The notes under the pieces are model-generated. The model did no database searches. It saw only the letters and a list, made by a program, of their open reading frames with translations, and had not been told where the DNA came from. From contig JACPYM010000029.1 in NCBI GenBank assembly GCA_016196035.1, positions 62,001 through 126,000 of the forward strand: a stretch of 64,000 nt of DNA, read 5' to 3'. This DNA comes from Acidobacteriota bacterium. GTDB taxonomy: Bacteria; Acidobacteriota; Blastocatellia; RBC074. The position numbers and the translations under genes are program-made. Shown in pieces: positions 20,887 through 37,675 of this stretch (its first letter is position 1; every line of letters starts with the position of its first letter).

Positions 20887-20989
20887 GCGGCGGCTGACGG
20901 TGCGATTGAGAGCACCGGTGGCAGAGCAGCCCGCGCTTGACTGGCACAGGGCAGCCCTTGCTGACGCTTTGTCATCACCCAAATTTTTT

Positions 20990-21251
20990 GTGCGCTTTCA
21001 GCCCGCGAAAGCGGGCGGCAACATAAAGCCTGGGGTGCAGGCGGAGCCGGAACCCCAGGAAAGCGTTAAATTGAATCACCTAGCCCACGGAGTGGGCGAC
21101 AGACATTGATTGGCTAGTCGTGACGCTCTGCCGCCCGCCTTCGCGGGCTAGGTGGATTTTCGCCAATGTTCCCAGGGTTCCGCGCGCAACGCGCTGCACC
21201 CTGGGCTGTATGCTGCCGCCCGCCTTCGCGGGCCAAAAAACCAAGCGCACG
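20990..21251. repeat. Two inverted copies of a three-hairpin unit of about 115-125 nt
   Basis: Left unit 20990-21105 and right unit 21127-21251 face each other. Each contains, in the same order: GTGCGCTT, a GCCCGC/GCGGGC stem, a CCTGGGGT or CCCAGGGT stem enclosing GCAG..GGAAC, and an AGCCC stem followed by C(A/G)GA. The middle stems differ between units but stay paired (CCTGGGGT/ACCCCAGG against CCCAGGGT/ACCCTGGG), and the third stem is GCCCAC/GTGGGC in one and GCCCGC/GCGGGC in the other. This makes up most of the 450-nt gap 20887-21336. Confidence 0.8.
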
Positions 21252-21336
21252 TTTCGAGCGAAAGTTTGGGTAATAACAAGGCTCACGCGCGGGCTACTGT
21301 CACGGGCAATTTCTCTGGCAAAGAAAGGAAGACGCT

Positions 21337-37399: not shown

Positions 37400-37512
37400 A
37401 CTGGCAATCTCCATTACCTTGGATACGCGCGGTAAATACGCCCAGTATTTCAGTGACGTCATTGCACATTTTGGTGGTGAAGCTTAGCGCCGCAGCCTTT
37501 ACATTAACTCAA

Positions 37513-37660
37513 CCGTGAACGGCTGGGCGGTGGATTCGTTAAAGGTTCAGTCCGCTTCAGCGGGCTTATCCAAAGTCTTTAGCTGAAGCTGGGCGAGGAA
37601 GCCCGCTGAAGCGGACTAAATTTCAATTGGCTTCGTTTCCCCAGCCGTGAACGGCTGGGC
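37513..37660. repeat. CCGCTTCAGCGGGCTT inverted repeat flanked by CCGTGAACGGCTGGGC direct repeats
   Basis: Arms AGTCCGCTTCAGCGGGCTT at 37549-37567 and its exact complement at 37599-37617 (19 nt). They are flanked by two exact copies of CCGTGAACGGCTGGGC (37513-37528 and 37645-37660); the second sits inside the palindrome CCAGCCGTGAACGGCTGG (37641-37658). Both fill most of the 37218-37675 gap with the nested repeat before them. Confidence 0.82.
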
Positions 37661-37675
37661 TAGTGGAAAAGCAGT

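Follow-up and report, generated by a model that had tools for sequence, protein, structure and literature searches.

The intergenic element described here is best explained as a two-layer non-autonomous element, in which a MITE shell moved by a DDE transposase encloses a REPIN-like core of tripartite REP units partnered with a subclass 1.2 Y1 transposase, and we consider this reading quite probable. The element lies in the window, by which we mean the whole analysed stretch of 64,000 nucleotides (G000:C29:62001-126000 in its own genome). The outer layer carries terminal inverted repeats (TIRs) of the type CTTGTCATTACCCAAAT... and a target-site duplication (TSD) of (8-)9 bp, and would be moved by the DDE transposase in trans. 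The core appears to be an inverted pair of tripartite REP units, each reading H1, 12 nt, an NNAG foot, H2, 20-40 nt and H3, with the two H3 hairpins pointing inward. The putative partner of these units is a TnpA_Y1 subclass 1.2 (HuH) protein whose gene lies at another place in the genome, G000:C91. While the DNA is replicated, this protein may recognise the unit by one of its strands, folded as single-stranded DNA, and would thereby spread or rearrange the core. The repeat family, the TIRs, the TSDs, the covariation, the gene-specific repeats that flank subclass 1.2 genes and the common architecture were established by computation.

The window element and its parts

The original prediction described, at 20990-21251, two facing three-hairpin units with compensating stems, and we found this pair to be real. 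The repeat search gave inverted arms of 45 nt at 20996-21040 and 21194-21238 with 84% complementarity, the 281-nt stretch at this locus folded far below its shuffled versions (z = -10.7), and the stems covary over 95 distinct copies. Folding of each unit alone as single-stranded DNA produced exactly three hairpins, H1, H2 and H3 (z = -4.6 and -3.2). The hairpin GCCCGCnnnnGCGGGC (GCCCGC-N4-GCGGGC) was observed exactly three times in the 64-kb window, against 0.04 expected, and all three lie inside 20990-21251. However, the full element exceeds this interval. It spans 20968-21280 (313 bp) and is bordered by a target duplication at 20960-20967 and 21281-21288. The predicted order of motifs also had to be corrected, because GTGCGCTT is the inner part of the TIR and lies outside the three-hairpin unit. 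The parts are listed below.

20960-20967, no strand: left target-site duplication GCTGACGC, 7/8 match to 21281-21288 (TSD test over 41 TIR pairs)
20968-20996, + strand: left terminal inverted repeat, consensus CTTGTCATTACCCAAATCTTTGCACGA, holding GTGCGCTT (copy alignment, TIR searches of the genome)
20999-21104, + strand: left three-hairpin unit (REP-like), H1 outermost (copy alignment, profile, pair counts, ssDNA fold)
21001-21016, + strand: left H1 hairpin, GCCCGC-gaaa-GCGGGC (hairpin count, pair counts, ssDNA fold)
21029-21059, + strand: left H2 hairpin, with an 8-bp stem, a GNA/GNA 3x3 internal loop and an inner stem; foot AAAG; 12 nt after H1 (sequence, pair counts, plan of upstream flanks, ssDNA fold)
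21083-21097, + strand: left H3 hairpin, GCCCAC-gga-GTGGGC, then GACAG (sequence, pair counts, ssDNA fold)
21098-21132, no strand: short inner gap, interpreted as the place where the Y1 gene sits at G000:C91 (comparison with L017 and L134)
21127-21236, - strand: right three-hairpin unit, opposed to the left one (repeat search, copy alignment, pair counts, ssDNA fold)
21133-21148, - strand: H3 of the right unit (repeat search, hairpin count, ssDNA fold)
21171-21205, - strand: H2 of the right unit, CCCAGGGTGCAG...CGGAACCCTGGG (sequence, pair counts, ssDNA fold)
21218-21233, - strand: H1 of the right unit (repeat search, hairpin count, ssDNA fold)
21241-21280, - strand: right terminal inverted repeat, ...GTTTGGGTAATAACAAG (copy alignment, TIR pairs, TSD test)
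21281-21288, no strand: right target-site duplication GCTCACGC (sequence, TSD test)

The host sequence of the element is itself another repeat (AGTAGCCCGCGCGTNAGC), present at 20925-20967 and 21281-21310. Similar sequence is interrupted at the same place by other MITE copies (L010, L052, and perhaps L049 and L058), and this shared insertion place suggests that the AGTAGCCCGCGCGTNAGC-like repeat is a preferred target. Elsewhere in the window, at 37507-37662, we noted a second inverted palindrome pair, CCGTGAACGGCTGGG / CCCCAGCCGTGAACGGCTGGGCTA, enclosing AGTCCGC..GCGGGCT and AGCCCGC..GCGGACT. Its hairpins resemble H2 and H1/H3 of other Y1 genes of the family.

The repeat family and its MITE shell

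In the own genome (9.6 Mb, 139 contigs) the element gave 58 blastn matches, both strands counted, at about 30 places, and matches were obtained in 7 of the 11 genomes searched, the own genome included. The copies sit in unrelated contexts. Confinement to this locus and a lack of covariation had been named in the original prediction as arguments against it, and we observed the opposite on both points. For the covariation analysis, 95 distinct units were gathered by a sequence-only profile and not by a structure filter, so that circular covariation was avoided. Standard pairs filled 96% of the pair cells in these units, compared with 86% in shuffles (maximum 87.6%). Double changes were found at 18 of the 23 stem pairs, with sequences, rather than independent events, as the counted unit and with H1 in part misaligned. 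The internal loop of H2 reads G-N-A on both its 5' and 3' sides, the outer G and A being nearly fixed and N being free on both sides. The internal-loop bases said to be constant are therefore so for G..A / G..A, whereas GCAG is variable at its 'C'. On the unit strand, G.T mismatches numbered 41 and A.C mismatches 10 (95 units). Such a bias fits selection that acts on the folding of one particular strand, which might be expected of a single-strand transposase substrate, and an RNA would also be compatible with it.

Ten copies including that of the window, 301-321 bp long, have both the common TIR (CTTGTCATTACCCAAATCTTTGCACGA...) and the window core. The same TIR surrounds a different hairpin-unit pair in nine copies of 283-286 bp, and about 20 shell-bearing copies (283-321 bp, non-coding) were counted in the own genome. 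Among 41 TIR pairs, a few of which are internal matches of one element, 29 showed a strong direct repeat at the junction with a mode of 9 bp, while mismatched left and right flanks gave 2.1%. Palindromic insertion sites were seen in 12/41 as against 5% expected, for example CCGTGGGTTGAAACCCACGG repeats. The element shows these features of a MITE: TIRs, a TSD of constant length (7/8 in the window copy), and a short, non-coding and multicopy sequence. Larger target duplications are not made by Y1 enzymes of the IS200/IS605 type (PMC2817692). The TIRs together with the (8-)9-bp TSD are a signature of a DDE-type transposase; as read from the sequence, the window copy was most likely placed by such an enzyme acting in trans by cut-and-paste. 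Mobilisation of the shell in this manner, like the order in which the two layers were assembled, is what we infer from these patterns. No autonomous DDE element with the CTTGTCATTACCCAAAT... TIR was found in the own genome, even with a 12-nt exact core. TIR pairs more than ~330 bp apart were also absent from this genome, in which contig ends hide some copies, and no transposase adjoined the TIR at the inspected loci (singles near contig ends, G061, and G084, the last by eye).

Shells and cores behave as modules. In G061, which represents another family of the class, the TIR surrounds an AT-rich core that is non-REP, and this makes shell and core separable. Conversely, the window core family was found inside a second, TA-flanked TIR type (L019, L021, L022, L025 and L026), and one TIR with several cores, together with the window core in a second TIR type, shows that the two layers are modular. 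This second MITE family has the TIR TAGATTTCAAGAAAA with TA on both sides in 14/21, is IS630-like, and its cores are interchangeable. Two further arrangements were noted. In G084, from another class of the phylum, L191-L195 carry a variant of the TIR shell, CTTGTCCTTACCCAGAT, with a different hairpin core. In a relative (L143, 900-1560), the insertion is nested: a MITE with the TIR of the window (TIR1) has entered a further three-hairpin pair at its end, and a duplication of 9-10 bp, GCTTTATGCT / GCTTAATGCT, accompanies it.

The Y1 gene and its flanking units

At G000:C91 (L017:2268-2720) we found a gene for a Y1 (HuH) transposase of 150 aa, with an array of window-core units on each side in inverted orientation. 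A relative, G004:C520, has the same layout in a clean unit-gene-unit form. The window element corresponds to the G000:C91 layout minus the gene, with the H3 hairpins inward and a gap of ~35 nt at the gene's place. Judged from this correspondence, the window layout is a REPtron's arrangement without the gene, that is, a putative REPIN. The G000:C91 protein matches the IS200 models PF01797 and NF033573 as well as solved structures of the IS608/ISDra2 type. In 19 aligned proteins of the family, H55.H57, W95-Q96 and Y115...Q119..H122H123 are invariant. The proteins carry the signature of TnpA_Y1 subclass 1.2, DH[VIL]H, WQ and Y---Q--HH, a few members having DHLH or NHVH. Subclass 1.2 was described as having ~148 aa, DH[IV]H, WQ and Y---Q--HH, with neither REPs nor IS properties (Quentin et al. 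2018, PMC6006769), and with a distribution mostly in Cyanobacteria and Bacteroidetes (PMC6006769). A class 3 Y1 from Acidobacteria as the owner of the units was ruled out by its motifs.

A second Y1 gene of the own genome, at C88, has another core. Its unit gave 36 matches in the own genome, many of them within MITEs of ~285 bp, and matches the interiors of the ~285-bp TIR1 MITEs. We also noted, at L035 1000-2982 (G000:C24), a coding end resembling a restriction-modification specificity gene, followed by tandem hairpin-unit arrays beside a subclass 1.2 Y1 gene.

From GTDB genomes spread over many phyla we took a sample of 80 subclass 1.2-like genes, 70 of them testable, and compared the 350 nt upstream with the 350 nt downstream of each as inverted copies (E<=1e-4). 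Inverted flanks were present in 52 of the 70 genes (74%) across many phyla, compared with 2 of 146 control positions; within the family the figure was 18/25. Only 3.5% of mismatched upstream and downstream pairs from different genes matched, and the flanking repeats are therefore gene-specific. The published absence of associated REPs in subclass 1.2 does not hold for most genes of this sample. In 34 upstream flanks with simple hairpins, a highly regular plan could be read: H1 is followed, usually after 12 nt, by an NTAG foot and by H2, which has an 8-bp stem; a stretch of usually 20-27 nt then leads to H3, whose stem is like that of H1. The window units fit this plan with 12 nt between H1 and H2, their foot being AAAG or ACAG where it is mostly NTAG elsewhere. 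A strict tripartite scanner found no triple in the 64-kb window and none in 20 Markov controls; it misses the window element because of the internal loop in H2. Like the C88 unit in the own genome, the gene-adjacent unit of a complete Planctomycetes genome has copies at a distance from its gene (44 matches). In Algoriphagus, the unit was observed in a local array beside the gene and nowhere else.

We lean, by somewhat more than an even chance, to the broader view that subclass 1.2, thought to be an orphan HuH group and left in the published classification with neither a DNA partner nor a role (PMC6006769), would supply the transposase for a REP system that is widespread in many phyla and has a three-hairpin unit. 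In this view, one DDE-type MITE shell has, in this lineage, also taken up the units of several such systems, so that the resulting elements could move in two ways. If so, each subclass 1.2 protein gains a concrete candidate substrate, and binding, strand choice and cleavage become testable. The units would also account for a whole class of palindromes between the genes of Acidobacteriota, Planctomycetota, Verrucomicrobiota and Bacteroidota, and a MITE shell with interchangeable REP cores would be one second route for the spread of REPs.

Alternative readings and known systems

Could the element be a plain MITE, with the hairpin core as the mere interior of a DDE-type miniature element, functionally unrelated to Y1? 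Its TIRs and 9-bp TSDs agree with this, as do the shells of G061 that carry the same TIR around AT-rich non-REP cores, and the action of Y1 on the core is one that we infer. We nevertheless regard a plain MITE as unlikely. The core is also found without the TIR, in L005, L009, L011 and L013-L016 (copy alignment with flanks), within the second, TA-flanked TIR family, and on both sides of cognate Y1 genes; moreover, cores that belong to two different Y1 genes occur within one and the same TIR. Still less probable is a degenerate insertion sequence of the IS200/IS605 type, whose left and right ends the units would represent; this is the last of our alternatives in likelihood. The matches of the protein to NF033573, PF01797 and IS608/ISDra2-type structures would be in line with such a remnant. 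However, the established IS200/IS605 elements lack terminal inverted repeats, have subterminal hairpins in their place and make no larger TSD (PMC2817692), whereas the flanking units here are inverted copies of each other, and per genome the genes are few and diverged and the units many.

The original prediction had seen in the pair the look of a structured RNA or a cruciform-forming DNA element. As an RNA, the units would be transcribed into a non-coding RNA or an mRNA-stabilising element between two small exported-protein genes. We find this very improbable, only marginally less so than the insertion-sequence remnant, in spite of the strong fold, the covariation with G.U-type pairs and the intergenic site between two co-directional genes. 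Rfam gave no match at the gathering threshold over the whole window, no promoter-like site was seen, and the copies occur in unrelated contexts. The units flank transposase genes, and as the two units are oppositely oriented, one transcript reads only one of them in sense. The other suggestion, a cruciform-forming DNA, comes close to the evidence, which points to a mobile element that is palindromic, occurs dispersed and has hairpin-forming units. As a whole, the earlier reading is partly supported. The preferred explanation remains the two-layer one, a MITE shell around a REPIN-like core.

Compared with known systems, the core is close to the REP, REPIN and BIME elements that work with RAYT (TnpA_REP) (Nunvar 2010, PMC2817692; Bertels and Rainey 2011, PMC3116915). 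It shares with them palindromes that are scattered between genes and often form inverted pairs, a Y1 HuH gene between inverted copies (G000:C91, G004:C520), and a repeat family of its own for each gene. In contrast, the unit has three hairpins in ~105 nt with a fixed H1-H2 spacing, while a REP is one hairpin with a GTAG foot; the canonical 5' GT[AG]G foot at a single hairpin was not found here, the units having three hairpins and a foot that reads AAAG/ACAG in the window and NTAG in the consensus elsewhere. The protein belongs to subclass 1.2 (Y---Q--HH), whereas RAYT belongs to class 2 (Y---NP). With subclass 1.2 of PMC6006769 it shares ~148-150 aa, DH[IV]H, WQ and Y---Q--HH, but most of the genes sampled here have inverted hairpin units, and they occur in many further phyla. 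TnpA_Y1 class 3 has been reported from Acidobacteria (Solibacter), where high-copy, atypical secondary structures flank it, and has the motifs NHVH and YV[VI]xEQ and a CnGA foot (PMC6006769); the host group and the flanking structures are alike, but here the motif is Y---Q--HH and the foot NNAG.

Like bacterial MITEs (such as Correia/RUP-type, IS630-derived, MITEAba12), the shell has TIRs and TSDs, is non-coding, measures ~300 bp and is present in many copies. Unlike them, it encloses an inverted REP pair that has its match in a Y1 gene, and several unrelated REP cores occur in one TIR. The 'TIRtrons' are TIR-flanked Y1 genes, mainly of subclass 2.1, with GGGGWSAS motifs (De Nocera et al. 2013, PMC3733652). 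There too inverted repeats flank Y1 genes, and some TIRtrons fuse REP remnants with unrelated stem-loops; however, the hairpins here are tripartite, where TIRtrons have the GGGGWSAS motifs. The 'CGTC' REPs of De Nocera et al. were ruled out as the H1/H3 hairpins, having 8-9 bp stems, AT first pairs and a CCA tail. Our literature search, which covered sources other than subscription journals and preprints, returned no paper linking subclass 1.2 to such units. As to whether the element equals a known family, a point raised in the original prediction, it works like REP/REPIN, but its form is undescribed for TnpA_Y1 subclass 1.2 in the literature covered. The element would be a new form of the known REP/REPIN system, with its core tied to a transposase group of hitherto unknown substrate.
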